DNA from: Salinivenus lutea
GTDB lineage: Bacteria > Bacteroidota > Rhodothermia > Rhodothermales > Salinibacteraceae
DNA: 64,000 nucleotides
Assembly (NCBI GenBank): GCA_002894685.1
Contig: NCRC01000004.1
Location: 1 to 64,000 of the forward strand
Direction: 5' to 3'
Both the position numbers and the translations under genes were made by a program. Shown here piece by piece: positions 4,629 to 28,061 of the stretch; the stretch's first letter is position 1, and every line of letters begins with the position of its first letter. The notes beneath the pieces were generated by a model. The model was not told the DNA's origin and searched no databases. It was given only the letters and a program-made list of their open reading frames with translations.

Positions 4629-4726
4629 CAGGTCGGTTTCGAGTTGCGAGGTTTGATGTTTGAATTGGGCGTGGGGCACGCCCCGAGGGGCCCCATTCGG
4701 CCCCTGCCGTCACAGTGTGCCGGTGC

Positions 4727-8124: not shown

Positions 8125-8571
8125 AGGGCAAAAAAAGAATCGAAGCAGTAGACGAAATGATGCGGTCTCGGCGCGCCTGCGCCAAAGGGCCAAGAAGAGG
8201 GTACGTCGACGATCGGCGACACGTCAGGTCCTTTTCGCCCCACAGAACACAAACAATGGCGTGTTTCGCCTCATCCTCCGGCGACGCCCCTCCCGAACCT
8301 CCTCCCTCAGCCTGAAGAGGTGACTCTAACCAGAAAGCACTCAGAAAAGGTTGCATGCGGAACGGTGTACAGCACTTGGTATTTTGTGAATCATCGACGA
8401 TAAAAGCAATGGCTGAAGGGCCGCTCCACGTTCATTCCACATTCTTCGTGCTCTTTCCATCGGCGCCTGGCGTCTCGGGCCCTCTCAGCCGGCGATGGGC
8501 CTATCGCTTTCTCCTCTCTTCACCGCCTCCTATGTTGAACGATCCCCTTCTGCCCCAGTCGCCTCCGCTTC
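8125..8571. promoter_or_regulatory. Divergent intergenic region between ugd and the DegT gene
   Basis: Non-coding stretch of 447 bases separating the two arms of the polysaccharide locus; promoters for both arms should lie here. The part at about 8330-8420 is visibly richer in A and T than the surrounding sequence and contains TTGGTATTTTGTG at about 8377-8389, which only loosely resembles the Bacteroidota -7 element (TAnnTTTG). I find no convincing open frame, terminator or long inverted repeat. The regulatory role is inferred from gene orientation. Confidence 0.5.
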
Positions 8572-9705
8572 ATGCCGGATTCCATCCCGCTTGCGCAACC
8601 CGCCATTACGGAGGAAGGTAAGGAGCTCGTGGACACGGTGCTCTCCTCCGGTCGCCTCTCGCGCGGCCCGTTCGTCGAGGCGTTTGAGGAACGGATGGCC
8701 GAGCGCTGCGGCACGACGCACGCCGTGGCGGTGAGCAGCGGGACGGCGGCACTTCACTGCATCGTCCGGGCCCTCGACCTCCCCGCGGGCGCCGGGGTGA
8801 TCACCACCCCGTTCAGCTTCGTGGCCTCGACGAACGTGCTGCTGTACGAAGACCTGCGGCCCCGCTTCGTCGACATCGACCCGGAAACGTACAACCTCGA
8901 CGTGGAGGCCGTCGAGGCCGCCCTCACGCCTCAGACGGAAGCCCTCCTGGCCGTCGATGTGTTCGGCGTACCGGCCGACTGGCCCACGCTGCACGACCTG
9001 GCCGACGCGCACGACCTCCGACTCATCGACGATGCCTGCGAGGCCCTAGGGGCCGCGATCGACGATCAGCCGGCGGGCAGCTGGGGCACGGCGGGGGCCT
9101 TTGGCTTCTACCCAAACAAACAAATCACGACTGGGGAGGGCGGCTGCATTACGACCGACGACGACGCCCTGGCCCGCAGGTGCCGCGCCCTCCGCAATCA
9201 CGGTCGCACCGGCACCGGGCGCATGACCCACGAGCAGTTGGGCTACAACTACCGCCTCGACGAACTCTCAGCCGCCGTGGGCTGCGCTCAGCTGGATCGG
9301 CTCGGCCCGGCCCTCGACGCCCGGGCCGCGGTCGCGGCACAGTATGCCGACGCCCTGGCCCCGCTCCGCGACGACCTCGTGCTGCCGTCCGCGGCCCCGA
9401 ACGGCACGCGGAGCTGGTTCGTCTACGTCGTCCGCCTCCGCGACCACTTTGCCCCCGAGGCCCGCGACCAACTGATGGCCGCCCTCCAGGACGCCGGGAT
9501 CGGGTGCGCACCGTACTTCCCCCCGATCCATCTGCAGCCGTACCACCGGGAGGCGCTGGGCCATGCCCCGGGCGACTTTCCGGTCTGTGAGCACGTCTCC
9601 AATCGCACCCTCGCCCTTCCCTTCCACGAGGACCTGTCCCCGGCCGCCCTCCAGCGCGTCGCGACCGCACTGGCCGACCGGCTTCCGTCGCTTCCCCGCA
9701 CGTAG
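8572..9705 (+). CDS. DegT/DnrJ/EryC1/StrS-family PLP-dependent sugar aminotransferase
   Basis: Fold-type I aminotransferase of 377 residues that transfers an amino group, usually from glutamate, to a nucleotide-linked keto sugar. The family signatures are SSGTAALH near residue 56, TTPFSFVAS, the aspartate in IDDACEALGA and the PLP lysine K183 in FYPNKQITTGEGG, followed by the typical NHGR and YNYRLDE segments. The substrate could be the 4-keto sugar made by the PglF-like dehydratase encoded at 12570, as in the PglF-PglE pair, or the keto product of RfbB. First gene of the rightward arm, with the sulfotransferase gene 21 bases downstream. Exact sugar unknown. Confidence 0.92.
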   Translation: MPDSIPLAQPAITEEGKELVDTVLSSGRLSRGPFVEAFEERMAERCGTTHAVAVSSGTAALHCIVRALDLPAGAGVITTPFSFVASTNVLLYEDLRPRFVDIDPETYNLDVEAVEAALTPQTEALLAVDVFGVPADWPTLHDLADAHDLRLIDDACEALGAAIDDQPAGSWGTAGAFGFYPNKQITTGEGGCITTDDDALARRCRALRNHGRTGTGRMTHEQLGYNYRLDELSAAVGCAQLDRLGPALDARAAVAAQYADALAPLRDDLVLPSAAPNGTRSWFVYVVRLRDHFAPEARDQLMAALQDAGIGCAPYFPPIHLQPYHREALGHAPGDFPVCEHVSNRTLALPFHEDLSPAALQRVATALADRLPSLPRT

Positions 9706-9726
9706 CGGACCACAGCCCTTCGCCCC

Positions 9727-10602
9727 ATGTCGTCTCCTCGCCCCGTTCTCATCCTCGGCGCGGCGCGGTCCGGGACCAAGCTCCTGCGCCGCCTCCTCGG
9801 GACCGCCCCCGACGCCGCCGTGGTGCCGTACGGCGTGCCGGCCGTCTGGAAACGGGGATGTGAGGAGCACCCGCACGACGCCCTCCCGCGCTCCGCCTGC
9901 ACAGACGCGTCCGCCCGGCGCATCCGGGAGGCGCTTCAACAACTCGCACAGGGTCCCCCCGATGCCTCCTTCCTGATCGAAAAAACCTCGGCCAACACCC
10001 TGCGGGTGCCCTTCGTTGACGCTGTGTACCCGAACGCCCGCTTCGTGCATCTGGTGCGGGACGGGGTGGACGTCGTCGAATCGGCCCGGCGACGCTGGCA
10101 GGCGCGGCCCGGCCTGGCCTACCTCGTCCGCAAGGCCCTTTACCTCCGCGGCACGGGCCTGCGGCAGGGCCTCCGCTTCGTGTGGGATCGGCTCCGGGGC
10201 CTCGGCACCGCGTCGCCGTCCCTCTGGGGCCCCCACTACCCCGGCATGGCGAGCGACGCCGCCGCGCGCCCCCTGCTGGACGTCTGTGCAAAGCAGTGGC
10301 GGGCCTGCGTGGAGTCGACCCTCGATGCCCTCGACGCCCTGCCCGACGCACGGGTGCTATCGCTCCGCTACGAATCCCTGGTCCGCGACCCGCACTCGGT
10401 GGACCGCCTGGCCCGCTTTCTGGGCCTGTCGGACGCCGGGCCGATGCGGGCCGCGTACGACCAGGAGGTCGACGACACGTTCGTTGGACGGGGGCGCACC
10501 CGGCTCTCTGCCGCCGAGCGCGACCCCATCGCCCCAATCCTGCACGCCCCGCTGGCCCGACTCGGCTATCCGGCCCCGACCTCGACACGGGCCGCCACAT
10601 AG
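9727..10602 (+). CDS. PAPS-dependent sulfotransferase family protein
   Basis: Protein of 291 residues related to carbohydrate/N-sulfotransferases, which move sulfate from PAPS to a hydroxyl or amine. A P-loop-like 5'-phosphosulfate loop, LGAARSGTKLLRRLLG, lies at about residues 10-25. The 3'-phosphate-binding segment with FVHLVRDGVDVVESARRRW is at about 107-125, and a conserved LRYESLVRDP follows near 215. There is no signal peptide or membrane helix, so it probably acts in the cytoplasm on a lipid-linked or nucleotide sugar. It sits inside the glycan operon, while the opposite arm encodes PAPS synthesis. Acceptor unknown. Confidence 0.85.
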   Translation: MSSPRPVLILGAARSGTKLLRRLLGTAPDAAVVPYGVPAVWKRGCEEHPHDALPRSACTDASARRIREALQQLAQGPPDASFLIEKTSANTLRVPFVDAVYPNARFVHLVRDGVDVVESARRRWQARPGLAYLVRKALYLRGTGLRQGLRFVWDRLRGLGTASPSLWGPHYPGMASDAAARPLLDVCAKQWRACVESTLDALDALPDARVLSLRYESLVRDPHSVDRLARFLGLSDAGPMRAAYDQEVDDTFVGRGRTRLSAAERDPIAPILHAPLARLGYPAPTSTRAAT

Positions 10603-10663
10603 CCCCTCGACCGTGGACCCATCCACTGCACGCCCGTTCGTTTGACCGTCCCCGTCACTGCCT

Positions 10664-11287
10664 GTGGGAAAACGCCTCTTCGATCTCGTCTCGGCGTCGG
10701 CGCTTTTGCTGGCTGCCGCCCCGATCCTCGCGCTCGCGGCTCTGGCCATCTACCTGGAGAGTGGACGCCCAGTCGTGTTCGTCCAGACCCGCGTGGGACA
10801 AAACGGGCGGCTGTTTTCCCTGTACAAGCTCCGTTCGCTCCCGACCGGCCCGCGCGACGCAACCGAGCACACCCCAGAGCCGCTCGCGGTGGGCCGCTGG
10901 CTTCGCCGGTGGGGCCTGGATGAACTGCCCCAGCTCTGGAACGTCCTCCGCGACGAGATGAGTCTCGTCGGCCCCCGCCCCGTCCTTCCCCCCGAAGCCC
11001 GCGGGTACACCGAGCCCCAGCGGGGACGCCTCGACGTCAGGCCGGGCCTCACCGGCTGGGCGCAAATCCACGGCCGCAATGCCCTGCCGTGGGCCGAGCG
11101 CATCGAGTACGACCTGTGGTACGTCGAGCACGCCGGGCCGTGGACCGACCTAAAAATCCTGCTCTACACCCCGGTCGTCCTGGTGTCCGGCACGGGGGTG
11201 CGCGGTCCCGGCGACCGGGACCCGTCCGCACACGAGGTGCGACGGGACGCCGACGAGGCCCCTACCGCCGATGCGCCCGAGACCTAG
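10664..11287 (+). CDS. Small PglC/WcaJ-type phosphoglycosyl transferase
   Basis: Monotopic phosphoglycosyl transferase of 207 residues that would move a sugar-1-phosphate from a UDP-sugar to undecaprenyl phosphate, starting glycan assembly on the inner membrane. The KRLFDLVSA motif followed by one re-entrant hydrophobic helix (about residues 8-30), then LYKLRS, DELPQLWNVL, the SLVGPRP motif and RPGLTGWAQIHGRN are all present. The start is a GTG, since the family motif begins two residues later. The length matches PglC rather than the 460-residue WcaJ type. It begins 61 bases after the sulfotransferase and its stop is 2 bases before the next glycosyltransferase start. Confidence 0.93.
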   Translation: MGKRLFDLVSASALLLAAAPILALAALAIYLESGRPVVFVQTRVGQNGRLFSLYKLRSLPTGPRDATEHTPEPLAVGRWLRRWGLDELPQLWNVLRDEMSLVGPRPVLPPEARGYTEPQRGRLDVRPGLTGWAQIHGRNALPWAERIEYDLWYVEHAGPWTDLKILLYTPVVLVSGTGVRGPGDRDPSAHEVRRDADEAPTADAPET

Positions 11288-11289
11288 CC

Positions 11290-12492
11290 ATGCACATCGT
11301 CTGCCTGTACTTTCATTACGCGTCGCCGGACTGTCCCTCGGGCGGCCGAGCGTACTCCCTCCTCCGCGCCCTCGGGCGGGAGCATCGAGTGACGGTCTTC
11401 ACCGGGGCCCATTACCACACGCTCCGGCAGACGCAGGCGTACGACTGGGCCCCGCCGGGCGTCCGCGTCCGGATGCTGGACGTCCCCTACACCAATGCGA
11501 TGTCCTCCCTTCAGCGGCTCACGGCCTACACCACCTTTCCGCTGTGGGCCGGCGCCCAGGCCGCTCGCGTGCCCGACGCGGACCTGGTGTACGCCATCTC
11601 CACGCCCCTCACCACCCCCATGGCGGCGGCCGTCGCAGCACGCATACAGGGCGTGCCGTGGGTGCTAGAGGTCCGCGACCTGTGGCCCGACGTGCCCATC
11701 CAAATGGGAGCCCTGCCCTCGCCCCTGCTCCGGCGCCCCCTCCGATGGGCTGAGCACGGGCTCTACCACGACGCCGCCCACGTCATCACCGTCTCCCCCG
11801 ACATGACGTCCCACATCGAGCAACACGGCGTGCCCGCTGCGCAGGTCACCACCCTTCCACAGGGAACCGACCCCGCCCTGCTCGACAGCCCGGACGCCCC
11901 CGCATCTTCCGACCTCCGCCGCGCCCACGACCTCGGAGCCGGCCCCGTCGTCCTGTACGCCGGCGCCTTCGGCCGGGCCAACGACATTCCGACGCTCCTC
12001 GCCGCCGCCGAGCGCCTGGCTGGCCGGTCCGACGCGCTCTTCGTGTTTATTGGACATGGGTATTACGAGGCCGAGATTGAGGCGGCGGCCCACCGCCTCC
12101 CACATGTCCGACGCATTCCCGCGCAGCCGCGTCATCGCATGATGCCGTGGTTCCGACTGGCGACCGTCTCGCTCGTCTCGTTCCTCGACCGTCCGGTGCT
12201 GGGCACCAACGCTCCCGCCAAGCTCTTCGACAGCCTCGCCGCCGATACCCCCGTCCTCGTGACCAACCCCGGCTGGATGACCCGCTTCGTTCAGCGCCAC
12301 GACTGCGGATGGGTTGTGCCTCCGTCCTCCCCCGCCGCCCTCGCCACTCGGATTGCGCAGGTGGTCGATGCGCCGGACACCGCCCGGGCCGCGGGGCGCC
12401 GCGGCGGCGCCATCGTCCGCACACGGTACGACCGGTCCCAGCAGGCGGACACCCTCGCGTCAATTTTCCGAACCGCCGTGGCCGCCTCCTAG
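11290..12492 (+). CDS. Glycosyltransferase family 4 (GT-B fold)
   Basis: Cytoplasmic retaining glycosyltransferase of 400 residues that probably extends the lipid-linked sugar made by the preceding gene. The N-terminal domain begins MHIVCLYFHYASPDCPSGGR. The C-terminal nucleotide-binding domain begins near LYAGAFGRANDIPTLL, followed by the acceptor/donor region FDSLAADTPVLV, in the position where many GT4 enzymes carry an EAMA-like E-x7-E motif. The ATG at 11290 gives the expected GT4 start two bases after the phosphoglycosyl transferase stop; in-frame sequence further upstream overlaps that gene and is unconserved. WbuB/PglA-type N-acetylhexosamine transfer is a plausible role but the sugar cannot be read from sequence. 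Confidence 0.9.
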   Translation: MHIVCLYFHYASPDCPSGGRAYSLLRALGREHRVTVFTGAHYHTLRQTQAYDWAPPGVRVRMLDVPYTNAMSSLQRLTAYTTFPLWAGAQAARVPDADLVYAISTPLTTPMAAAVAARIQGVPWVLEVRDLWPDVPIQMGALPSPLLRRPLRWAEHGLYHDAAHVITVSPDMTSHIEQHGVPAAQVTTLPQGTDPALLDSPDAPASSDLRRAHDLGAGPVVLYAGAFGRANDIPTLLAAAERLAGRSDALFVFIGHGYYEAEIEAAAHRLPHVRRIPAQPRHRMMPWFRLATVSLVSFLDRPVLGTNAPAKLFDSLAADTPVLVTNPGWMTRFVQRHDCGWVVPPSSPAALATRIAQVVDAPDTARAAGRRGGAIVRTRYDRSQQADTLASIFRTAVAAS

Positions 12493-12569
12493 CCGGATCG
12501 CCCGGTTGAGGACGACGGGGACCGCCTCTATTATTGAACCACTGCTCCGCCACCGACTCCCTGCCGCTT

Positions 12570-14117
12570 GTGTCGTCGCTTTTCGCCGCCATTCGCCAAC
12601 AGCTTTCCACGAAGTCGCTCGAGCATCCGCGGCGGTGGGCCCTGTTTCTCCTGGACTGCCTTCTGGTGTACGGGAGCCTGGCCGCAAGCCTCGCGATTCA
12701 GTCCGGGCGCATGCAGGTTCCCTCCACGCCCCCGTGGGCCGACGCGGTTCACCTGACCCTGCTGACGTACGTGGGCGGACTGGTGATCGGGGGGCTGTAT
12801 CGGTGGGACGTGCGCGAGATGCACCTCGCGGAATTTCTCCGGGCGGCGGCGGTGCTTCTGATCGCCTGGGTGGGGGCAATGGGCCTGTCGTACCTCGTCG
12901 CCCCAGAGCCCCCGCTCCCCCGAAGTGCCATGAGCATCTTCGGGCTTCTGGCCCTCGTGGCCATTCTCGGAAGCCGGGCCGTGGTGCGCCACGTGCTGGA
13001 GTGGGGGGCCGACTCGCCCCATCCTCCGCACCCTCCCCCGGACCCGCTCACCCTCCACGACCTCGTCTCGCGCGAGCCGGTGCGCATCGACCGCGAGGCG
13101 CTGCGGAACGACCTCTCCGACCGCACGGTCCTTGTCACCGGCGCCGGCGGGTCGATCGGCACGGAGCTCTGCAAGCAGCTCACGGCCCTCCACCCGTTTC
13201 GCCTCGTGCTCGTCGACATCAGCGAGTACAACCTGTACCAGCTCAAGAACACCCTCCGGAACGCCTCCTTCGAGGGCGAGATCGAGTTCTGCATCGGCGA
13301 CGTGCGGGACGAGACGGTCGTGGACGGCTTGTTCGACCGCACCCGGCCCGACGTCGTGCTTCACACCGCCGCGTACAAGCACGTGCCCCTCCTGGAGCGC
13401 CACCCGGCAGAGGCGTTTCGCAACAATACGATGGCGACGGTTCACCTCCTGCGCCTCTGCGAAGAGTACGACACCGAGCAGTTCGTTTTCGTCTCGACCG
13501 ACAAGGCTGTCGAGCCGACGAGCGTCCTCGGCGCCACGAAGCGGCTGGCCGAATGGTACGTGCAGGCCGCGACCTCGCGCGTGCACCGCTCCATCGTCCG
13601 GTTCGGCAACGTGTTCGGGAGCCAGGGCAGCGTCGTCCCACGGTTCGAGCGTCAGTTGGCCAACGGGGAGCCCGTCACCGTCACGCATCCGGACATGGAG
13701 CGGTACTTTATGAGTACCGACGAGGCCTGTGGCCTCACCCTGCAGACCCTTCTCTTTGACGACGCGCCGGTCTACTGCTTCGAAATGGGCACCCCAATCA
13801 AGATCGACCGGCTCGCCCGGACACTGGTGCGCCGATGGTACCCGCAGGTCGACCCGGACACGATGATCGAGTACGTGGGGCGACGGCCCGGCGAGAAGTT
13901 TAGCGAGTCCCTGGTGATGCCCTACGAAACCTCCCACGCCACACCCCACGACAGCATCGTGGGCCTCCGCGGCAGCGCCCCCCACAGCCGGACCGAACTC
14001 GAAGTCTACTTCCGGCACCTGCAAACGCTCTCCGACTCCTCCGGCCCCCAGGCCCGCCTCCGCCGCGCCCTGTTTGCGGACTCGTTAGAAACCTCCCTGG
14101 ACGACGTGTCCCGGTAG
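12570..14117 (+). CDS. PglF/CapD/WbpM-like membrane UDP-sugar 4,6-dehydratase, short form
   Basis: Membrane-bound SDR that should produce a UDP-4-keto-6-deoxy-GlcNAc intermediate. About 515 residues: four hydrophobic helices (about 20-135), then the catalytic domain with GAGGSIGTELC and VSTDKAVEP. Larger relatives of 600-670 residues carry an extra CoA-binding-like Rossmann domain after the helices; this one goes almost directly to the catalytic domain. At the active-site Y/M-x3-K position the sequence is L320-GAT-K324, so neither Tyr nor the WbpM-type Met is present. A GTG at 12570 was taken as start; a TTG at 12534 is the alternative. It could supply the keto sugar for the DegT aminotransferase. 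Confidence 0.88.
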   Translation: MSSLFAAIRQQLSTKSLEHPRRWALFLLDCLLVYGSLAASLAIQSGRMQVPSTPPWADAVHLTLLTYVGGLVIGGLYRWDVREMHLAEFLRAAAVLLIAWVGAMGLSYLVAPEPPLPRSAMSIFGLLALVAILGSRAVVRHVLEWGADSPHPPHPPPDPLTLHDLVSREPVRIDREALRNDLSDRTVLVTGAGGSIGTELCKQLTALHPFRLVLVDISEYNLYQLKNTLRNASFEGEIEFCIGDVRDETVVDGLFDRTRPDVVLHTAAYKHVPLLERHPAEAFRNNTMATVHLLRLCEEYDTEQFVFVSTDKAVEPTSVLGATKRLAEWYVQAATSRVHRSIVRFGNVFGSQGSVVPRFERQLANGEPVTVTHPDMERYFMSTDEACGLTLQTLLFDDAPVYCFEMGTPIKIDRLARTLVRRWYPQVDPDTMIEYVGRRPGEKFSESLVMPYETSHATPHDSIVGLRGSAPHSRTELEVYFRHLQTLSDSSGPQARLRRALFADSLETSLDDVSR

Positions 14118-14237
14118 AGTCGAGCCGGCCGGGCTCTCCGCACGGGGCCGCACGGCCGCCCGGCTTGTTATGTCGCGTTCTGTCCGGGACCTTTCAGTGC
14201 ATCTCCTCCACTACCTTCATCTCCTCCATCGCACGGC

Positions 14238-17200
14238 ATGCCGAGTGTCACGATCATTCGGCCCCTCCTGCTCTGGGCGTGCCTGGCGGCTCTGCTCGTC
14301 CCCCCGGCCCTCGGACAGTCCTACGACGCCTCGTGGTACGATCCCGAGGCCCCGCACGTCAAGATTCAGGTGGTGGAGGATGGCGTGTACCGCGTCACGG
14401 GCGAGGAGCTGAGCCCGGCGCTCCCCCCGAACACAACGCTCGACGACCTTGCGCCCGGCACGCTTCGCCTTCTGGAGAACGGATCCGAAATCCCGATCCA
14501 CGTGACAGGGGGCGCGGATGGGACGTTCGACGCCGACGATGCGATCGAGTTTGTGGGGCAGCGCAACCGAGGCACCGACGAGCGCTGGGCCTACGAGGAG
14601 CCCTCCGATCAGAGCAGCGCCTACCGCAGCCTCTACGCCGACACCACCACCTACTGGCTGACCTGGGGCGGCGCCGAGGGCGAGCGGTACAGCCCCCCTT
14701 CCCCTGCGTCGCAGTCACCCACGACGGCCCTCCGGGACACCGTACACCTGGAACAGGACAACACGTACTACTTCGGGCGCAGCTTCGAGAGTAGCGACGC
14801 GTACTACACCCGCTCCGAGGACTACTACTGGCGCGAATTCTCCCACACGAACCCCGACACGATCTCGGCCACCTACACCCTGCCCGTGGCCCGCCGCACG
14901 GACAGCGCCGACGACCTACACGTGTCGGTCCGGCTCGGGACACAGTCGAACTCGTGTCATCGCGTGCGAGTGGAGGCGCGACTGGAACAGGACACGGGCT
15001 CGCCCGCCTTTGAGACGGTGACCTCGACCGAATGGCGCGGCTATGAGCGAAAGACGCTCCGGGCCGCGATCTCCCAGACCCGGGTCCCCGGCGACCTGGA
15101 CGTGCGCCTCACATCGTTCAATGACGGGTTCTCCGACCCCGACTGCCCCGACCCCGCCAGCACGCCCAACTTCATCCTCCTCGACTATCTGGAGGCCAAC
15201 TATGTGCGCCGCCTGGAGGCCCGCAACGGCGCCCAGCGCTTTGTGGCCCCCTCGGCCGGCGACGCGACCGTCTCGCTCACCGGCTACTCGGCCCCCTCCG
15301 TGCAGGTGTACAACCCGGCCGACGCCCACCGCTACACGGCCTCCACGTCCGGCGACACCGCCACGGTCTCGGTTGCGCCGTCTTCGTCTCACACGCCGTT
15401 CTGGGCCGTGGGGGCGGACGCGCTGAAGTCGCCCGCCGCCATCCAACGGGACGCCCCCAGCAACTGGTCGGTCGCCGACGCGCAGGGGGCCGACTACGTG
15501 ATCCTGACGACCAAAGCCCTCCGGCCCTCGGCCAACGCCCTGGCCGACTACCGGCGCGCGGAGCGGGGCTATGAGGTGGCCGTCGTGAACGTCCAGAACG
15601 TGTTCGACGAGTTCGACTACGGGCGTCCCACCCCTATCGCCATACAGCGCTTCGTGCACTCCCTGCGAGACTGGTCGCCGCAGCCGGACTTCCTGGCCAT
15701 CTACGGCGACGCGGAGTACCCGGTGGATCCCGGCCCCGCCGAGCCGCGGCCCGACTGGAGCGTTCCCTCGTTCGGCTATCCTCCCTCGGACGGGTGGTTC
15801 GCCATGCAGGCCGACGGGCCCGAGGACTGGTCCGAATCCCTGGCGGTGGGACGCATTCCGGTCCGCACCAACGCACAGGGCGAGCTGTTTCTCGACAAGC
15901 TGCAGACCTACGAGGACACCGAGCCCGCCGCCTGGCAGAAGCGCATGCTCCTCCTCGCCGGCGGCACGGATAAAAACGAACAGGAGGCCCTCCAATTCTA
16001 CTCCAACGAGTGGGGCGAACAGGCCACCGGCACCCCCGACACCCTCTACCCCGCCGGTATGGACACGCTCCGCTACTACAAACAGGTGGGCGACGCCCTC
16101 GACACGAGCTTCCAGGATTCCCTCTCCACCGACCTGCAGCGGGGCGCCGGCTGGCTCAGCTACTTCGGCCACTCGGCCGCCCAGACCTGGGAGATTGTGA
16201 CCGACCCGCCGGAAGAGTTCGACAATGCCGGGCGGCTGCCCGTCATCCTCTCGCTCGGCTGCAAAACCGGCTCGTTCGCCGGGGCGCGATTCGGGAGCAA
16301 CACGCGGCCGTCGCTCGGGGAACAGTTTGTCGTCGGGACACTGGCGGACGACGGCACCCCCATCGATGGGGCCCGGAACGGCGGCATCGCCCACTGGGGC
16401 ACCTCCGCCCTCGGCAACCGGCTGCCCTCCGCCCGCCTGGGCGACGCCCTCAACACCCGCGTCTTTGCCGACACCATGCGGGTCCTCGGCCGCGCCATCC
16501 GCGAGGCCAAGGCCGAAATTGCGAAGAACTTCGGCGAAAGCAGCACCTACCAGCGCCACCTGCTCACCTACGGCCTGCTGGGCGACCCGGCCACGCGCAT
16601 CGCCATCGCCGATCAGCCGGACGTCCAGGTGGCGGAGGACCAGATCAGCCTCTCTCCCTCCGCCCCGACGCCCTCCGAGCCGCTCGCTGTCGATGTAGAG
16701 GTCCAAAACTTCGGGCTCGTCCCCCGCGACAGCGTGGACTTCCGGCTGACCTGGCAGCGCCCCGACGGGTCGCAGACCGAGCGCACGCGCCGGCTTCCGC
16801 GCTTTGCCCTCACGACCACCGCCGAGCACACCTTCTCCCTCGACGAGCAGTCGCTGGGCACCAACACCTTCCGCGCCACAGTAGACGGCCCCGACCTGTA
16901 CGACGAGGCCAACGAACTCAACAATCAGGCCGCCACGGAACAGGTGGTCTTCGACACCGGCATCGACCTGATTCGCCCGACCGACCTGGGGCTGGTCCGC
17001 AGCCGCACGCCCCCCCTCCGCGTCAGCGTGCTTCGCCGGTCGGACGACCCCGTGCCCGTGCAGCTCCAGCTCGACACGGTGCCGGACTTCAGCTCGCCGA
17101 TGCGCCGATCGACCCGGATCGAGGCCGCCTCGGCTCAGATCGAGTGGCGCCCCGACGAGGCCCTGGAGGCGGGGACCTCCTACTACTGGCGCGCCCGCCC

Positions 17201-19289
17201 CGACCTCCCAGACCGCCCCACGAACTGGAAGCGCTCGCGGTTCACCGTCCGGCCCGAGGCCGACGCGGACGGATGGACGCAACAGGATGAACTGCTGGCC
17301 GGAAATCCGGAGACCACCCGCCTGCGTTACGACGATGGGGCGTTGGACTTTCAGACGTTTACACGGGAGATCTTCGCCTCCTCCGAGCGCGGGGGCGGCG
17401 CCTTCAAGGGACAGTTTAATGTCGGGGGCAGCGCGCAGTACGAGCGGCTCGGGCGCGGCTTTGGCGTGCTCGTGATCGACGACACGACCGGCCAGGTGGT
17501 CGACCACGGCTCGTTCTGCACGTACGACGTGCGCGACGACCTGCTCGATGATGGTCGCTGCACGAACAACCTGGACGGAAGCGACGCCATCGCCGCGCTG
17601 GAGTCTTTCCTTGAGGAGGTGGAGCCGGGGCAGCACGTGTTCACCCGTACGCGCCACCTCGGCCGCACGAGCGGTCCTACGATTCCCGAAACCGTAAAAG
17701 ATCTCTTCTGCTCGCTGGGGACCGACGGCGTCTCCTGCAGCGACGGCGCCGCCACGTACAGCGACAGCATCGACGGGCTCACGTACAACGACCTCTGGCT
17801 GATGCAAACGCGCAAGGGCGCCCCCGAATCCACCGTCGAGCGGGTGGCCCGGAGCAGCGCGAATACGAACGAGATCACCCGCACCACTACCCTCGCATTT
17901 CGTCACGCCAAGGGCACAATCACGACCGGCCTCATCGGCCCCGTCAGCGCGTGGGACGATCTCCGGTGGTCCTCCACCTTTGCGGACACGGACGATCGCC
18001 TCCAGCTCGACGTGCTCGCCCCCGACTCCACCGTCCTCGTCGACAATCTGCGGGGACGTACCGGCGAGCGCGACCTGAGCCCCATCGACCCCGACCAGCA
18101 TCCGCAGGTGCGCCTCCGCGCGACCCTCACGGACTCTACGCGCCGCACCGCCCCCCGCCTCTCGCAGTGGACGGTCCGCTACACGGGCGTCCCCGAGCTG
18201 TTGGCCGACCCGGCGGGCCTCCAGGCGATTCCGGACACCCTCCTCCAGGGCGAGCCGGCCTCGGTGTCGCTGCCCGTGTTCAACCTCGGCGCGGTGGCCT
18301 CCGCCCCGGTTCGTGTGCGCTACGAACAAACGGACCCGTCGGGCACCACCTCTACGCTCGCCGTCGATACGCTGGGCACGATTGAACCGCTAGGGGAGGC
18401 GACCAGCTCGTTCACCTTTTCCTCGAGCGACGACCAGGCCGGCGCCAACACCCTGACCGCCACGGTGGTGTCGGACGGACCGCCCGAGCGCATCACCTAC
18501 AACAACACCGCCCTTCGGTCCCTCTTCGTGCTGGCGGACGACACCCCGCCCACCCTCACGGTGCGCTCCGAGGGACGAGAGCTCCCCGAAACGCCGAACG
18601 ACCTCCAGGCGCTCCAGGACCCGCGGCTGCCGTTCGTGCCTACGGACCCCACGCTCCGCGTACAGGTGCGCGACGACAACCCGTACCTGCGCCTCACCGA
18701 TACCTCCCGCGTCGAGGTGTACTTCAAGGAGGGGCTCCCGCCCGACGGGCCCGGCCTGGTGTCGCAGTACCGGCGCGTCCCGTTTTCCGGCCCCGCGCTG
18801 GCCTTCGATCCGGCCGAGGACGATCAGGAAAACCAGGCACAGGTTCTCTACGAGCCCCCCCTGCCGGCCGAGGACGCAACGTACACGCTGAAGGTCGAAG
18901 CCACGGACGCCCAGGGGAATGAGGCGGCCCCCTACACGGTCACGTTCCGGGTGCAGCAGGAGCAGGTGATTGAGGACCTGTATCCCTACCCCAACCCGAT
19001 GAGCGACCACACCCGGTTTGCCTTCCGCATCCGGGGCGGCAACACGCGGCCCAGCGACTTTCGACTGCGCATCTACACGGTGAGCGGCCGCCTCGTACGC
19101 GAATTTGACGGGACGGACGTGAACGACGGCGCGGGCCTCCGCCCGACGGGGTGGAACTTCCTGAGATGGAACGGGCGCGACGCGAACGGCGACCGGGTGG
19201 CGACGGGCGTCTACCTCTACCGAGTCCGCATGGAGGGGGAGAACGGAACCGTAGAGGGCGACGTGGAGAAGATCGCCGTCATCCGCTAG
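14238..19289 (+). CDS. Large secreted C25 (gingipain/PorU-like) cysteine peptidase with type IX-like C-terminal domain
   Basis: Exported protein of 1683 residues. A signal peptide covers about residues 1-26 (hydrophobic core, then ALGQ). The C25 catalytic domain spans about 430-800. The likely dyad is H645 in YFGHSA and C675 in LGCKTG, the spacing and context seen in gingipains and PorU. CARDB/Ig-like modules follow (about 810-900 and 1320-1430). The C-terminal 100 residues start at YPYPNP (Y1582) and end with GVYLYRVR and a KIAVIR tail, matching type IX/Por secretion CTDs. PorU is the T9SS sortase of about 1150 residues; this is much longer, so it may be PorU with extra domains or another C25 enzyme. 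It is embedded in the glycan operon. Confidence 0.85.
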   Translation: MPSVTIIRPLLLWACLAALLVPPALGQSYDASWYDPEAPHVKIQVVEDGVYRVTGEELSPALPPNTTLDDLAPGTLRLLENGSEIPIHVTGGADGTFDADDAIEFVGQRNRGTDERWAYEEPSDQSSAYRSLYADTTTYWLTWGGAEGERYSPPSPASQSPTTALRDTVHLEQDNTYYFGRSFESSDAYYTRSEDYYWREFSHTNPDTISATYTLPVARRTDSADDLHVSVRLGTQSNSCHRVRVEARLEQDTGSPAFETVTSTEWRGYERKTLRAAISQTRVPGDLDVRLTSFNDGFSDPDCPDPASTPNFILLDYLEANYVRRLEARNGAQRFVAPSAGDATVSLTGYSAPSVQVYNPADAHRYTASTSGDTATVSVAPSSSHTPFWAVGADALKSPAAIQRDAPSNWSVADAQGADYVILTTKALRPSANALADYRRAERGYEVAVVNVQNVFDEFDYGRPTPIAIQRFVHSLRDWSPQPDFLAIYGDAEYPVDPGPAEPRPDWSVPSFGYPPSDGWFAMQADGPEDWSESLAVGRIPVRTNAQGELFLDKLQTYEDTEPAAWQKRMLLLAGGTDKNEQEALQFYSNEWGEQATGTPDTLYPAGMDTLRYYKQVGDALDTSFQDSLSTDLQRGAGWLSYFGHSAAQTWEIVTDPPEEFDNAGRLPVILSLGCKTGSFAGARFGSNTRPSLGEQFVVGTLADDGTPIDGARNGGIAHWGTSALGNRLPSARLGDALNTRVFADTMRVLGRAIREAKAEIAKNFGESSTYQRHLLTYGLLGDPATRIAIADQPDVQVAEDQISLSPSAPTPSEPLAVDVEVQNFGLVPRDSVDFRLTWQRPDGSQTERTRRLPRFALTTTAEHTFSLDEQSLGTNTFRATVDGPDLYDEANELNNQAATEQVVFDTGIDLIRPTDLGLVRSRTPPLRVSVLRRSDDPVPVQLQLDTVPDFSSPMRRSTRIEAASAQIEWRPDEALEAGTSYYWRARPDLPDRPTNWKRSRFTVRPEADADGWTQQDELLAGNPETTRLRYDDGALDFQTFTREIFASSERGGGAFKGQFNVGGSAQYERLGRGFGVLVIDDTTGQVVDHGSFCTYDVRDDLLDDGRCTNNLDGSDAIAALESFLEEVEPGQHVFTRTRHLGRTSGPTIPETVKDLFCSLGTDGVSCSDGAATYSDSIDGLTYNDLWLMQTRKGAPESTVERVARSSANTNEITRTTTLAFRHAKGTITTGLIGPVSAWDDLRWSSTFADTDDRLQLDVLAPDSTVLVDNLRGRTGERDLSPIDPDQHPQVRLRATLTDSTRRTAPRLSQWTVRYTGVPELLADPAGLQAIPDTLLQGEPASVSLPVFNLGAVASAPVRVRYEQTDPSGTTSTLAVDTLGTIEPLGEATSSFTFSSSDDQAGANTLTATVVSDGPPERITYNNTALRSLFVLADDTPPTLTVRSEGRELPETPNDLQALQDPRLPFVPTDPTLRVQVRDDNPYLRLTDTSRVEVYFKEGLPPDGPGLVSQYRRVPFSGPALAFDPAEDDQENQAQVLYEPPLPAEDATYTLKVEATDAQGNEAAPYTVTFRVQQEQVIEDLYPYPNPMSDHTRFAFRIRGGNTRPSDFRLRIYTVSGRLVREFDGTDVNDGAGLRPTGWNFLRWNGRDANGDRVATGVYLYRVRMEGENGTVEGDVEKIAVIR

Positions 19290-19309
19290 CTGCGCCCGGG
19301 GCTCGCACC

Positions 19310-20482
19310 ATGCACGTTCTCGTCCTTCCCTCCTGGTACCCCACGACCGAAGCGCCGCGCACCGGCATCTACTTCGCAGAGCAGGTCCAGTGCCTCCAGG
19401 CCCACGGACTGCAGATGGGCGTCGTGTACCCCGAGCAGCAGAGCCTACGCCGGGCCTCGTGGAGCGCCCTCCGCCAAAAACGCTGGCAGACCGAGTGGAC
19501 GGATCACTTCGGCATCCCGACGCTGCGCCAGTACGGCTGGAACGTGTGGTGGCGCTTTCCGCCGGGGCAGCGACTCCGCGTCCGCGCCGCCGTGCGCCTG
19601 GGCCGGCGGTACGTGGCCCGGCGCGGCGTGCCCGACCTCCTTCACGCCCACAGCGCCCGCTGGGCCGGGGCCGCCGCGGCCCGCCTCGGGGACGAACTGG
19701 AGATTCCGTACGTTTTGACGGAGCACTTCAGCGGATTCCAGAAGCCAAATGGCGTCTTTCCCTGGCGCTGGCCTCTCGTCGAAGCCGGCTTCCATGGCGC
19801 ACGACGGATCGCCGCCGTCAGCACCGCCCTGCGGGAAGCAATTGCATCGCACGGACTGGCGCTTGCCGACGAGATCGCCGTCCAGCCCAACCCGGTCCGC
19901 ACCTCGTTCTTCACCCTGCCCCCTGAACACCGCTCCCCGCCTCCCCCTCTCCGATTTCTCACCGTCGCCCGGCTCCGCCCTTTAAAAAACGTATCCGAAC
20001 TCTTGGATGCCTTCGCCACTGCCTTCGGCGAGAGCCGTGCCGCCACCCTCACCATCGTGGGCGACGGACCTGAGCGAGGCCCCCTAAAACAGCAGGCCGA
20101 TCGCCTCGGGCTCACTGACCAGATCACTTTTCGCGGCGCGCTGGATCGAGCCGGCGTGCGCGAGGCGCTCTGGGATGCACACGCGTTCGTCCTTCCGAGC
20201 CACCACGAGACCTTCGGCGTCGTGCTGATTGAGGCGATGGCGACCGGGCTCCCCGTCGTGGCCACCCGGTGCGGCGGGCCCGAAGACATCGTGACGCTCG
20301 AAACGGGACGGCTCGTTCCCCCCGACAACACCCAGGCGCTGGCCGAGGCCCTCCGCACGATGCATCGGACGCACGACACGTACGACGCGGCATCCATTCG
20401 CGCGTCTGCACTCGACCGCTACGGGCCCGAGGCGTTCGTTCGACGTACGCGCAACTTTTACCAACGGGCCCTGCCGGGCTGA
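19310..20482 (+). CDS. Glycosyltransferase family 4
   Basis: GT-B glycosyltransferase of 390 residues. It starts MHVLVLPSWYPT, a typical GT4 N-terminus with a following G-I-Y-F acceptor loop. The C-terminal half contains FLTVARLRPLKN, IVGDGPERGPL, LPSHHETFGVVLIEAMATGLPVVATRCGGPEDI, i.e. the E-x7-E nucleotide-sugar motif in full. It begins 20 bases after the C25 peptidase gene, so is probably co-transcribed with it. Its stop codon directly abuts the stop of the convergent glycosyltransferase gene with no spacer. Role: extension of the surface glycan; donor sugar unknown, although GDP-mannose is available from the ManC encoded at 23152. Confidence 0.92.
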   Translation: MHVLVLPSWYPTTEAPRTGIYFAEQVQCLQAHGLQMGVVYPEQQSLRRASWSALRQKRWQTEWTDHFGIPTLRQYGWNVWWRFPPGQRLRVRAAVRLGRRYVARRGVPDLLHAHSARWAGAAAARLGDELEIPYVLTEHFSGFQKPNGVFPWRWPLVEAGFHGARRIAAVSTALREAIASHGLALADEIAVQPNPVRTSFFTLPPEHRSPPPPLRFLTVARLRPLKNVSELLDAFATAFGESRAATLTIVGDGPERGPLKQQADRLGLTDQITFRGALDRAGVREALWDAHAFVLPSHHETFGVVLIEAMATGLPVVATRCGGPEDIVTLETGRLVPPDNTQALAEALRTMHRTHDTYDAASIRASALDRYGPEAFVRRTRNFYQRALPG

Positions 20483-21622
20483 TTAGAGCCCCGTCAGCAG
20501 ATCGCGGTACAACGACACGAGGCGCCCCTCCACCGCGTCCCACCGGTACTGCGAGGCCGCGTCCCGGGCGTTTCGCGCACACTTCCGGTACCGCTCCGGG
20601 TGCTCTTGCCATTCGTCAAGCACTGCCAGCACCGCTTCCGGGGCGCCCGGCGGCACGACGGCACCGCAGGCATGCCGCTCCACAAAGCGACGCCAGAGCG
20701 GAAAATCAGAGCAGATGATGGGCAGGCCGTAATGGAGATACTCAAAAAACTTGGTCGGCATCGATCCGGTGAAGTTTGCCTCCGGCTCGCAGAGGACCAG
20801 CCCAACATCCGCCCGGCGGTAATGGGGCGGCATCGTAGATGGCCGGACGTAGGTGTTCCCCCCCGTCCACTCCATCACGTCGCCGAGCTCTCCCCGCCGA
20901 ACCTGTCGCTCCGCCCAGGCCCGCTGATCGTCGTGGTGGCAAATCCCCACCATCTCGATGGTCTCGGGTCGGCTGGCCCGCTGAATGTGGTTTGCCAGTT
21001 CCACCATTGTCCGGAGCCCGCGGCGGACCGCAAGGGTGCCGGTGTACAGCAATCGGGTCGGAGGGCCCGAATCGTCCGGCGGGGCGGGCGGCCGCTGCTC
21101 CTCGTCCCCAATCGGCCGAAAGTAATTAGGCAGAAAGGTGTGCGCCACGTCCGCACCGGCGACGATCGACCGGTAGCTCTTCTCCGCCAACAGTACGTGG
21201 TCGACCCACCGGAACGCCCAGCGCTCCAGCCCCCGAAGCGCCCGCCCCAGCACTGCCCCCTTCGCCCGATAGTTCTCGTGCATATCGTAGACGACCCGAG
21301 CGCCCGTCACCGCCTTGAGGAGGCCGGCGAGGGGCAACAGTTCCGGATCGTGCACCTGATACAGGGCCGCCTCGAGCCGCCGGGCCCGCCAGAAGAGGCG
21401 CCGCTGAAGCACAAGTCGGTGGAGGCGGTGGCGCGGCCGCGGAAGGGCGTGGATCGGAATGCCGTGCACCTCTTCGTCGGCCTCGTGCGGGGCAACGAGG
21501 TGGGCCGAACACCCGTGCGCTCGGAGCGAGCGGAGCTGCTTGTGAAAGATGCGCGGATCGAACGGCGCGTGGACCGTCGTCAGGTGGGCCACGCAGGGAC
21601 CGGTGGAAACATCTGCCTGCAT
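20483..21622 (-). CDS. Glycosyltransferase, GT4-like, on the opposite strand
   Basis: Protein of 379 residues with a GT-B layout. The N-terminal domain has HLTTVHAPFDPRIFHKQ and a VYDMHENYRAKG segment near residue 130. The C-terminal domain includes LLYTGTLAVRRGL, a YVR..MPPHYRRADVGLVL stretch and TKFFEYLHYGLPIICSDFP, the modified E-x7-E-like region of the WecG/GT4 'DPRIF' subgroup. It is transcribed against its left neighbour with adjoining stop codons and is divergent from the flippase with 113 bases in between. It is the only leftward gene in the right half of the polysaccharide locus. Acceptor and donor are unknown. Confidence 0.88.
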   Translation of the reverse strand: MQADVSTGPCVAHLTTVHAPFDPRIFHKQLRSLRAHGCSAHLVAPHEADEEVHGIPIHALPRPRHRLHRLVLQRRLFWRARRLEAALYQVHDPELLPLAGLLKAVTGARVVYDMHENYRAKGAVLGRALRGLERWAFRWVDHVLLAEKSYRSIVAGADVAHTFLPNYFRPIGDEEQRPPAPPDDSGPPTRLLYTGTLAVRRGLRTMVELANHIQRASRPETIEMVGICHHDDQRAWAERQVRRGELGDVMEWTGGNTYVRPSTMPPHYRRADVGLVLCEPEANFTGSMPTKFFEYLHYGLPIICSDFPLWRRFVERHACGAVVPPGAPEAVLAVLDEWQEHPERYRKCARNARDAASQYRWDAVEGRLVSLYRDLLTGL

Positions 21623-21735
21623 TTTGAGGAGACAGCCAAGTCGTACGATCGATGCCGAGTCGGCGGGAGCGTGCGCCTCTCGTCTCGTCTTTCTACGTTA
21701 CGGTCGCGGATCTGAGCAACGACGGTGCTGCCCCC

Positions 21736-23055
21736 ATGTTCACCTCTGTTCGGCAGGTGTTCTCCTCCTCGCTGTCTCGGGGTGCCGCGGTGACGTTTGG
21801 CATCCGCGTGGCGGGCACCGGGCTGCTCTACGCCCTTCACGTGTGTCTGGCCCGTTGGATGGGGGCCGACGGCTACGGCGTGTACGTGTTTGCCATTAGC
21901 TGGACGAGCGTTCTGGCACGGCTGGGCGCCCTCGGGCTCCCGACAGCGGCCCTTCGCTTCGTTTCCACCTACCGCACCGAGCAGCAAACCAGCGACCTCT
22001 GGGGCTTCGTGCGAACGGGGCGCGTACTGGTGGTCGGGGGGACCGGGGGGCTGGCACTGATGGCCACCGGCGGAGCACTGCTCTTCCCCGCAGGCGCGTT
22101 TTCGTTCGGGGCTCTCCTGACCGGGTTCTGGATCGCCCCGTTGCTCGCCCTTCTGTCGTTCGAGACAGAACTCCTGCGGGCCAGCAACCGGTTTGCGTTG
22201 TCGTACGCCCCCAAATACCTCCTCCGCCCACTTGGGATCGGCGGCGGCGCCGGCGCCATACTCTGGGCCACGGACGCAGTGTCCCCAACGGCCGTCCTCC
22301 TCTGTACCGGCGGCGTGTTCGGGGGCGTGCTGCTCATTCAGCAGTGGGGCGTTCGCTGGGCCCTGCCGTCCGCCCGAGGCGCCCTCTTTCCTCCTCGCAC
22401 GCGTCAGTGGATCGGGGTCGCGCTTCCGCTTCTCCTCACGAACGGGTTCGACCTCGTGCTACAAAAGACGGACGTCGTCCTGCTCGGCGTCCTCGCGGGA
22501 CCGGACGACGTAGGCATTTACTTCGCGGCCATGCGCACCGCACAAGTCGTCACGTTCTTCGGCTTTGCCGTGGACGCCGTGGCCGCGCCTCACATCGCCC
22601 AACTCTACCACAACGGAGACGACCGCTTGCAGGCAGCTGCGTCCCGCTTCGCACACTGGTACTTCTGGCCCACGCTCGCCACCGCAGGGGGACTGGTGCT
22701 TTTCGCCACTCCCATCCTCTCCCTCTTCGGCGGGGAGTTTCTCGCGGGGACCCCCGTCATGTATGCCTTCCTGGCGGGGCTGTTGGTAAACGCGGCCACC
22801 GGTCCCCAAACCCACCTGCTCAGCCTCACGGGCCACGAACGCTCCTGCGCCTCCATCTTCGGCTGGTGTGCCCTGCTCAATGTGGTGCTGAATCTCGGCG
22901 GCATCTATGCGCTTGGGACCTTGGGCGCCGCCCTGGCCACGGCCACGACAATCGCAGTCCGCAACCTGTGGGTGCACTCCCACGTCATCCGACAGACGGG
23001 CATTCGGCCCTCCATCATCGCCGCCCTCCGGTCCAGCTCTCGCTCTCCCGCCTGA
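21736..23055 (+). CDS. Wzx-like oligosaccharide flippase (MOP/MATE superfamily)
   Basis: Polytopic inner-membrane protein of 439 residues with about 12-14 hydrophobic helices spread over its length, expected to flip undecaprenyl-linked repeat units to the periplasm. The N-terminal segment has GAAVTFGIRVAGTGLLYALH and then RWMGADGYGVYVFAI, the classical Polysacc_synt pattern in which an amphipathic ARxMG-x-YG loop follows the first helix. The ATG at 21736 precedes this helix closely; upstream in-frame residues are polar and overlap the divergent promoter. A Wzy-type polymerase is not visible nearby, so polymer length control or an alternative export route must be encoded elsewhere. Confidence 0.9.
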   Translation: MFTSVRQVFSSSLSRGAAVTFGIRVAGTGLLYALHVCLARWMGADGYGVYVFAISWTSVLARLGALGLPTAALRFVSTYRTEQQTSDLWGFVRTGRVLVVGGTGGLALMATGGALLFPAGAFSFGALLTGFWIAPLLALLSFETELLRASNRFALSYAPKYLLRPLGIGGGAGAILWATDAVSPTAVLLCTGGVFGGVLLIQQWGVRWALPSARGALFPPRTRQWIGVALPLLLTNGFDLVLQKTDVVLLGVLAGPDDVGIYFAAMRTAQVVTFFGFAVDAVAAPHIAQLYHNGDDRLQAAASRFAHWYFWPTLATAGGLVLFATPILSLFGGEFLAGTPVMYAFLAGLLVNAATGPQTHLLSLTGHERSCASIFGWCALLNVVLNLGGIYALGTLGAALATATTIAVRNLWVHSHVIRQTGIRPSIIAALRSSSRSPA

Positions 23056-23151
23056 CCCGCCGCGTCGGGCCCCCTCGGATGCAACTTTCGCGGTCAACAT
23101 CTATGTTGGACCGCCCATCGATGTCTCTTGCCACTTCCCCCCTTCCTCAAC

Positions 23152-24222
23152 ATGCACTACGCCGTGATTATGGCCGGCGGCATCGGGAGCCGCTTCTGGC
23201 CCGCCAGCCGCAAGGAAAAGCCCAAGCAGTTCCTCGATGTATTTGGGGACGGCACCCTCATCCAGAACACCGTGGCGCGCCTCCAGGGCCTCATTCCCCC
23301 GGAGCGCTGCCTGATCGTGACCCACAACCGGTACGTGGAGCAGACCCAAAAACAGCTGCCCGCCGTCCCCGACGAGAACATCCTGGCGGAGCCCATCAGT
23401 CGCAACACGGCCCCCTGCATCACCTACGCCGCCGCCGTGCTGGCCGACCGCGACCCCGACGCCACGATGGCCGTCCTCCCCGCCGACCACGTGATCGGCA
23501 ACGTGGAGGCGTTCCACAACACCCTGCGCGTGGCGCTGGAGGCCGCCCAGGAGCCCGACGCCCTCGTCACGATCGGCATTGAGCCCACCTATCCGGCCAC
23601 CGGCTACGGATACATTCAGTACGACGGCGACGCGGCCGACGACGGGGCCCTGCAGGCCCACCCCGTGCGCACCTTCGCCGAAAAGCCCGACCAGTCCACC
23701 GCCGAACGCTTTATCGACTCCGGCGACTTCCTGTGGAACAGCGGCATGTTCATCTGGCGGGCCGACACCATCCTGGACCAGATTCAGGAGCACCTCCCCG
23801 ACGCCCACGAGGCCTTCGCGTCGGTGCGCCAGGCCGGCGACGATACGGGGCCGGACACCCTGGAGACGGCCTTCCGAAACAGCCCGCGCATCTCCATCGA
23901 CTACGGCGTGATGGAGCAGGCCGACAGCGTGTACGTCGTGCCGGGGGCGTTCGACTGGAACGATGTGGGCGACTGGCGCGCCGTCTACGACCTGAGCGAA
24001 AAAAACGAGCTCGGCAACGTCATTGAGGGGAACGTCATCATGCAGGACTCCAGCCGGTGCTACGTGCAGGCCGGCGATCGGCTCGTGGTGCTCGTCGGCA
24101 TCCACGATTGCGTGGTGGTTGACACCGACGACGCCGTCCTCGTCTGCAACCGTGAGAGCGCACAGCAAGTGAAGCAGGTCGTCGAGTACCTCCACGCCCA
24201 CCAGTTTGAGGACTACGTGTAG
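23152..24222 (+). CDS. manC: Mannose-1-phosphate guanylyltransferase
   Basis: Makes GDP-mannose from mannose-1-phosphate and GTP. Of its 356 residues, the first show MAGGIGSRFWPASRKEKPKQ, the nucleotidyltransferase signature with the GMP motif. AEPISRNTAPC, LPADH and EKP follow, and the FDWNDVGDW segment near residue 265 is diagnostic for GDP-mannose pyrophosphorylases. It is the single-domain form without the phosphomannose isomerase cupin found in longer ManC/AlgA proteins. The ATG at 23152 is directly before the HYAVIMAGG strand. It is the last gene of the polysaccharide locus and is closed by the terminator at 24254. It presumably feeds mannose- or fucose-type donors to the GT4 enzymes. 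Confidence 0.94.
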   Translation: MHYAVIMAGGIGSRFWPASRKEKPKQFLDVFGDGTLIQNTVARLQGLIPPERCLIVTHNRYVEQTQKQLPAVPDENILAEPISRNTAPCITYAAAVLADRDPDATMAVLPADHVIGNVEAFHNTLRVALEAAQEPDALVTIGIEPTYPATGYGYIQYDGDAADDGALQAHPVRTFAEKPDQSTAERFIDSGDFLWNSGMFIWRADTILDQIQEHLPDAHEAFASVRQAGDDTGPDTLETAFRNSPRISIDYGVMEQADSVYVVPGAFDWNDVGDWRAVYDLSEKNELGNVIEGNVIMQDSSRCYVQAGDRLVVLVGIHDCVVVDTDDAVLVCNRESAQQVKQVVEYLHAHQFEDYV

Positions 24223-24425: not shown

Positions 24426-25118
24426 ATGTCTCAGTCGTCCGACGCCGCCCTTTCTCGACGCGAACGGGAACGCCGCATGCGTCGCCGGGCCATGCTCGAC
24501 GCCGCCCAGGCCGTCTTTGCAGAAAAGGGGTACACCGACGCCACCCTCGACGAAATCGCCGAGCGAGCTGAATTTGGGAAAGGGACGCTCTACAACTACT
24601 TCGAGGACGGGAAGAAGGGGATCCTCCTCGCTGTGTTCGACGACATCATCCGGGAAATGGAGTCGCTCATCCACACGGTCTTTCAGGAGGAGCGCGGCGC
24701 GGATCAGTCCCTGCGGAGCGCCTTCCACACGTTCGTGGAGCGGTACTTCGAAATGATCCAGAACCAGCGGGAGCTCTTCCTCATCCTCGTGCGGGAGGCC
24801 CACCGAATGGCCCTGAGCGACGATCCGGACCGCACCCGCTTCTTTCAGGAGCAGAAGGAGCGACTCGTCGACGCCCTCAGGCCCACCCTCGACGCGGCCG
24901 TCGAGGCCGGCGAAATCCAGCCGCTGCCCACCGCCGCCGTGGCCAACCTGCTCTTGGCCAACGTGCGGGGCATGGGCACCCACTCCACCCTGGAAAAACG
25001 TCACCGCCCCGGCGAAGAGCAGCCTTTTCTCGACAACCCTACGGAGGCGGCAAATTTTTTGACAACCCTTCTGTTTGACGGGTTGGCCGCTCACAGCCGC
25101 TCCGAAGCGCCTGCGTAA
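24426..25118 (+). CDS. TetR/AcrR-family transcriptional regulator of the efflux operon
   Basis: DNA-binding repressor of 230 residues. The N-terminal helix-turn-helix has AMLDAAQAVFAEKGY, ATLDEIAERAEFGKGTLYNYF (helices 2-3, about residues 22-60), the usual TetR signature. The all-helical C-terminal ligand domain shows no recognisable ligand motif. It is the first gene of a tetR-tolC-adaptor-RND operon; its TAA stop overlaps the ATG of the next gene (TAATG), indicating translational coupling. Palindromes upstream are its probable operator. Expected behaviour: release by a pump substrate. The ligand cannot be predicted. Confidence 0.93.
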   Translation: MSQSSDAALSRRERERRMRRRAMLDAAQAVFAEKGYTDATLDEIAERAEFGKGTLYNYFEDGKKGILLAVFDDIIREMESLIHTVFQEERGADQSLRSAFHTFVERYFEMIQNQRELFLILVREAHRMALSDDPDRTRFFQEQKERLVDALRPTLDAAVEAGEIQPLPTAAVANLLLANVRGMGTHSTLEKRHRPGEEQPFLDNPTEAANFLTTLLFDGLAAHSRSEAPA

Positions 25119-26818: not shown

Positions 26819-26877
26819 AGGGCCCCTCCGCGTCGCCGATGTCGTTCCTCTCCAACCCGTTCTTCCCTCCCGTGTCC

Positions 26878-28017: not shown

Positions 28018-28061
28018 CGTCGCCTCCTCCGCACTGTCCCGCACGAACGGAGCCCCCCGCG

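Follow-up and report, generated by a model that had tools for sequence, protein, structure and literature searches.

The question raised by this locus is why Salinivenus lutea, a salt-lake bacterium, carries a large C25 peptidase gene among genes of polysaccharide synthesis. The first-pass annotation of the window, i.e., the whole stretch of 64,000 nucleotides analysed here, proposed that the encoded enzyme uses or modifies the glycan of the locus as an anchor for secreted proteins, and that its length might make it a new sortase-like subtype.

The open reading frame at 14238–19289 on the forward strand comprises 1683 codons with no internal stop, and its GC content at the three codon positions is 0.67/0.50/0.89, a strong bias with the same pattern as in the adjoining genes; it is a real gene. 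The protein begins with a signal peptide, judged by eye as MPSVTIIRPLLLWACLAALLVPPALGQ (residues 1–26, 14238–14315). The Peptidase C25 domain (residues 420–787, 15495–16598; Pfam Peptidase_C25, 206 bits) contains the catalytic residues His645 (16170–16172) and Cys675 (16260–16262), and this dyad shows no variation across 16 aligned relatives. It is followed by a CARDB module (residues 793–898, 16614–16931; Pfam, 36 bits), a fibronectin-III/Ig-like module recognized from the predicted model and PDB matches with Z of about 9–10 (residues about 906–1005, 16953–17252), a FAM3/ILEI, POMGnT1-stem-like domain (residues about 1041–1223, 17358–17906), and a C-terminal domain (CTD) resembling type A of the type IX secretion system, T9SS (residues about 1590–1683, 19005–19286). 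The CTD scores 23.3 bits with TIGR04183 in the genome scan (cut-off 23) and 18.3 bits in the single-protein scan; its motif, YPYPNPM...RLRIYT..GRLVREF...VATGVYLYRV...EKI.VIR, is kept in 20 relatives, and the top PDB match of its profile is the C-terminus of Porphyromonas gingivalis PorU (E 1.4e-7). The matches of a fold search with the predicted CTD model were dominated by antibody chains. The signal peptide, dyad, CARDB/Ig-like modules and type IX CTD, all named in the first-pass annotation, were thus confirmed.

Gingipains likewise carry a C25 domain and a CTD, and the protein could on this ground be read as an ordinary secreted gingipain-like peptidase that lies between glycan genes by chance. 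This reading is highly improbable. In the PDB sequence search with E up to 1, the single match was PorU 6za2 (E 1e-16), with no gingipain among the matches; moreover, the N-terminal region is of the PorU type, and the glycan neighbourhood described below is conserved. The PorU2 profile NF052324 of NCBIfam ("putative type IX secretion system sortase PorU2"; 879 residues, cut-off 450 bits) aligns over its whole length to the N-terminal 880 residues, with 428.1 bits for the protein and 425 bits in the genome scan, which is below the curated cut-off. The canonical PorU profile NF033707 gives 240.8 bits and does not reach its cut-off of 420, whereas the canonical PorU proteins of the class mostly score 870–1110 bits. 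The first-pass annotation had suggested a C25 phylogeny against PorU and gingipains; in a 70-row tree (quick method, midpoint root, rows without gingipains), 20 canonical PorU proteins form one clade with support 100, and the window protein falls apart from them on the PorU2 side, within the branch of its own order. This branch scores under the NF052324 cut-off (425–428 against 450 bits), and PorU2 exceeds the cut-off in 32 of the 394 genomes of the phylum, mostly with proteins of 1650–1780 aa. Judged by its sequence, the gene encodes a PorU2-type C25 paralogue of PorU. The suggestion of a new subtype did not hold, because NCBI has an existing PorU2 model for this branch, whose usual length of 1650–1800 aa takes in the 1683 aa found here. 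The papers found in our literature search neither mentioned the name PorU2 nor characterized such a protein.

The proposed anchoring presupposes a T9SS and would be weakened by a separate PorU elsewhere. The genome (99.6% complete) encodes SprA (1669 bits), PorV (340 bits) and 18 CTD-protein matches, i.e., the PorU2-type protein and 17 others, and the PorU2-type gene is its only C25 gene; both points support the first-pass annotation. Canonical PorU is common across the 195 genomes of the class that were surveyed, and in this survey it was found in no member of the window's family, in which PorU2 is present in 15 of 20 genomes, partial copies counted. In relatives, porU lies beside porV, and PorV is present in all 20 canonical porU regions. 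The window's genome retains porV and the conserved genes next to it, on a contig other than that of PorU2; the space left there amounts to a few hundred bases, and porU is absent. PorZ, which in P. gingivalis binds the acceptor glycan and delivers it, exceeds its cut-off in 8/8 PorU genomes tested versus 0/8 genomes tested of the window's family. Because porU and PorZ are absent and SprA and PorV are present, the PorU–PorZ attachment pair was lost in this family while the translocon was kept. Separately, at one locus of another genome (G000:C68:39000-42500, L055), a PorV-family gene lies immediately beside a CTD-bearing gene.

A second reading takes PorU2 not as a sortase but as a surface protease or transpeptidase with a narrow substrate, for example one that matures a single surface or polysaccharide-export protein. 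Many of the genomes surveyed carry PorU2 together with canonical PorU, and PorU2 must therefore have a separate job there. The CTD proteins also persist where no C25 protein is found: family members without any C25 still have 13–23 of them, compared with 10 to at least 28 in the PorU2 carriers, and a sortase is therefore not essential for these members. Against this reading, PorU2 is the sole C25 protein in the window's family, where it occurs with the 17 other CTD proteins of the window's genome, and its N-terminal region, C25 domain and CTD match the PorU type rather than gingipains. We consider the narrow-substrate reading unlikely. As a side observation, SprA and CTD proteins were found and C25 was not in G026, G124, G160, G188 and the genera g49 and g51 of f17, which apparently have a T9SS without a sortase.

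The position of the gene between glycan-synthesis genes, noted in the first-pass annotation, agrees with the annotation of its neighbours. A same-strand run at 8572–20482 consists of a PglE/PseC-like DegT aminotransferase (8572–9705), a sulfotransferase (9727–10602), a PglC-like phosphoglycosyl transferase (Bac_transf, 10664–11287; 186.6 bits), a GT4 glycosyltransferase (11290–12492), a PglF-like membrane UDP-sugar 4,6-dehydratase (Polysacc_synt_2, 12534–14117) that ends 120 bp upstream of PorU2, PorU2 itself, and a second GT4 glycosyltransferase (19310–20482), all on the forward strand. The ATG of this last gene at 19310 lies 20 bp after the PorU2 stop codon; a start inside the PorU2 gene was considered and is wrong. 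A third GT4 glycosyltransferase (20483–21622, reverse strand) is convergent, and it is followed on the forward strand by a Wzx-like flippase (Polysacc_synt, 21652–23055) and a ManC-like mannose-1-phosphate guanylyltransferase (23128–24222). On the reverse strand upstream are genes for a UDP-glucose 6-dehydrogenase-like protein (6733–8193), an NDP-sugar epimerase/decarboxylase-like SDR (5728–6690), and CysD and CysNC (2748–5638), which supply activated sulfate (PAPS). Upstream, two reading frames of 620–640 aa that were considered as asparagine synthases proved to encode an anion symporter and CysNC. The scanned part of the window showed no Wbp/Vim linking-sugar genes, and a Wbp/Vim pathway was ruled out, the dehydrogenase being of the UDP-glucose (TuaD) type. 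Given the sulfotransferase and the adjoining CysD/CysNC genes, the glycan of the locus may be sulfated. A TetR gene and an RND efflux operon follow ManC at 24426–31982, and since the same arrangement is found in G032, G120, G137 and G152, this linkage is old.

Across seven GTDB families of the order, PorU2 is again accompanied by homologues of the glycan genes. If a locus counts as linked when three or more of the eight core glycan genes (PglF/PglE/PglC/GT4/ManC-type locus) lie within 10 kb, linkage is found at 15 of 21 PorU2 loci, at none of 20 canonical porU loci and at none of 20 arbitrarily chosen 20-kb regions. The Fisher p between PorU2 loci and canonical porU regions is about 1e-6, a value that serves only as a guide because the genomes are related. 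At least one glycan gene of the locus type is present at all 23 loci in named records (L212–L234, largely the same genomes as in the 21-locus count), which include those of Salinivenus iranica, Salinibacter altiplanensis, Longimonas halophila and Roseithermus sacchariphilus. The dehydratase follows PorU2 in its losses as well: a full-length PglF-like protein is present in 14 of the 15 PorU2-bearing members of the window's family versus none of the five PorU2-less members, and among 14 PorU-only genomes of the order, any homologue present is a different and weaker one. This comparison traced PglF alone, and the losses may represent few independent events.

The same neighbourhoods contain the evidence for a third reading, in which PorU2 is a general T9SS sortase that uses another acceptor glycan, such as LPS, and the locus is merely an island that gathers variable surface genes. 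The gene content of the locus varies between relatives, and PglF lies about 20 kb from PorU2 in G036, G112 and G037. In G008 with its congeners (L088) and in G065 (L092), there is no glycan locus, and PorU2 lies 7–8 kb from sprA. Outside the order, PorU2 was not found beside glycan genes, which rules out glycan linkage as a general PorU2 trait; the link is therefore not part of PorU2 as such. However, the linkage within the order is held over seven families, never occurs at canonical porU and exceeds the expectation from drift, as does the joint absence of PorU2 and PglF. A general sortase with another acceptor thus appears rather unlikely here. Apart from these loci, C25 relatives in Ignavibacteria-type genomes (L253, L254, L256 and L273) have PglC and/or DegT or PglF homologues nearby; this association is possibly independent, and these would be exceptions outside the order.

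The domain at residues about 1041–1223 gives a further indication of a relation to sugars. In the predicted structure of residues 897–1396 (pLDDT 85.7 over the whole model), this region matched POMGnT1 stem/FAM3 in Foldseek (E 3.7e-7, TMt 0.76), and a VIA superposition gave Z 16.3 over 143 residues at 2.5 Å. Independently of the fold search, a sequence profile of the domain matched the POMGnT1 stem 5ggj (E 2e-8), and Pfam ILEI matched in 14 of 16 relatives. The domain is present in all complete PorU2 proteins examined from the order and perhaps weakly in other PorU2 proteins; it was not found in the canonical PorU proteins examined. The POMGnT1 stem binds beta-linked GlcNAc through Arg129, Asp179 and Arg207, and FAM3C and FAM3A are likewise sugar binders (PMC9802357). 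By template numbering read by hand, the columns aligned to these three residues have, respectively, Arg in the window protein alone, mostly His, and mixed residues. The GlcNAc-contact residues are not conserved, and the ligand of the PorU2 domain is therefore not predictable from them; judging from the modelled fold, a sugar ligand is plausible.

The reading that we favour, with confidence slightly above even, is that PorU2 is a T9SS sortase that anchors cargo to the glycan of its own locus. PorU2 would be exported by Sec and then cross the outer membrane through SprA/PorV; like PorU, it would probably be kept at the surface by a CTD that is not cleaved off. There, Cys675 would cut the CTDs from the other CTD proteins, roughly 17 in number, and the acyl-enzyme would be passed on to a surface-glycan amine. 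The acceptor would most likely be the polysaccharide made by the surrounding PglF/PglE/PglC/GT4/Wzx genes, and it might be recognized through the POMGnT1-stem-like domain. In the window's family, PorU2 would have taken the place of the lost PorU–PorZ attachment pair.

PglF and PglE together would yield a 4-amino-4,6-dideoxy sugar, the amine of which a PglD-type acetyltransferase would cap. Seven relatives encode such an acetyltransferase, and the sulfotransferase at 9727–10602 of the window stands where several relatives have it; none was found in the window, and a free sugar amine as the acceptor is therefore conceivable, as a speculation. Known acceptors of PorU cargo are amine-bearing linking sugars, which differ between the three oral species found in the literature: a 2-N-seryl, 3-N-acetylglucuronamide in P. 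gingivalis, a 2-N-glycyl, 3-N-acetylmannuronic acid in T. forsythia and an N-alanyl deoxyhexose in P. intermedia (PMC7468200, PMC11969387). A bolder version, which we regard as doubtful, is that a single PorU2 acts as both sortase and glycan reader, replaces PorU and PorZ, and attaches cargo to a dedicated polysaccharide that is initiated by PglC, possibly sulfated, and encoded in the operon of PorU2 itself. If true, PorU2 and this polysaccharide would constitute a matched sortase–glycan pair distinct from the PorU/PorZ/A-LPS system.

A locus that pairs a putative sortase with a candidate glycan pathway would make the question of linking-sugar genes testable, and it gives PorU2 a candidate function. 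The results suggest that some T9SS bacteria replaced, or do without, the PorU/PorZ attachment step, and that PorU2 may tie exported proteins to the sugar chain of its own locus. They also draw attention to a domain of FAM3/POMGnT1-stem type, which is unusual for a bacterial enzyme resembling a sortase.

Compared with known systems, the window protein shares the PorU-type N-terminal region, the C25 His/Cys dyad and a PorU-like CTD with P. gingivalis PorU (6za2) and the canonical PorU of Rhodothermia. However, it exceeds P. gingivalis PorU (1156 aa) in length by about 500 residues, belongs to a separate clade, and is encoded away from porV, in a family without PorZ. With the NF052324 family it has in common the 879-residue N-terminal profile, overall length and domain order, whereas the PorU2 proteins of its order differ in their glycan-locus linkage, clear FAM3/POMGnT1-stem domain and scores below the cut-off. 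The fold of residues about 1041–1223 is that of POMGnT1 stem/FAM3 (5ggj, 5lc2; Z 15–16), although the PorU2 domain is bacterial, lies within a C25 protein and lacks the conserved GlcNAc-contact residues. Exosortase/PEP-CTERM systems, which lie beside exopolysaccharide and Vim-like genes, also place a protein-sorting enzyme in a glycan locus, as here; those systems, however, use an unrelated inner-membrane enzyme and signal (PMC7468200), whereas the present locus combines a C25 enzyme with T9SS CTDs.
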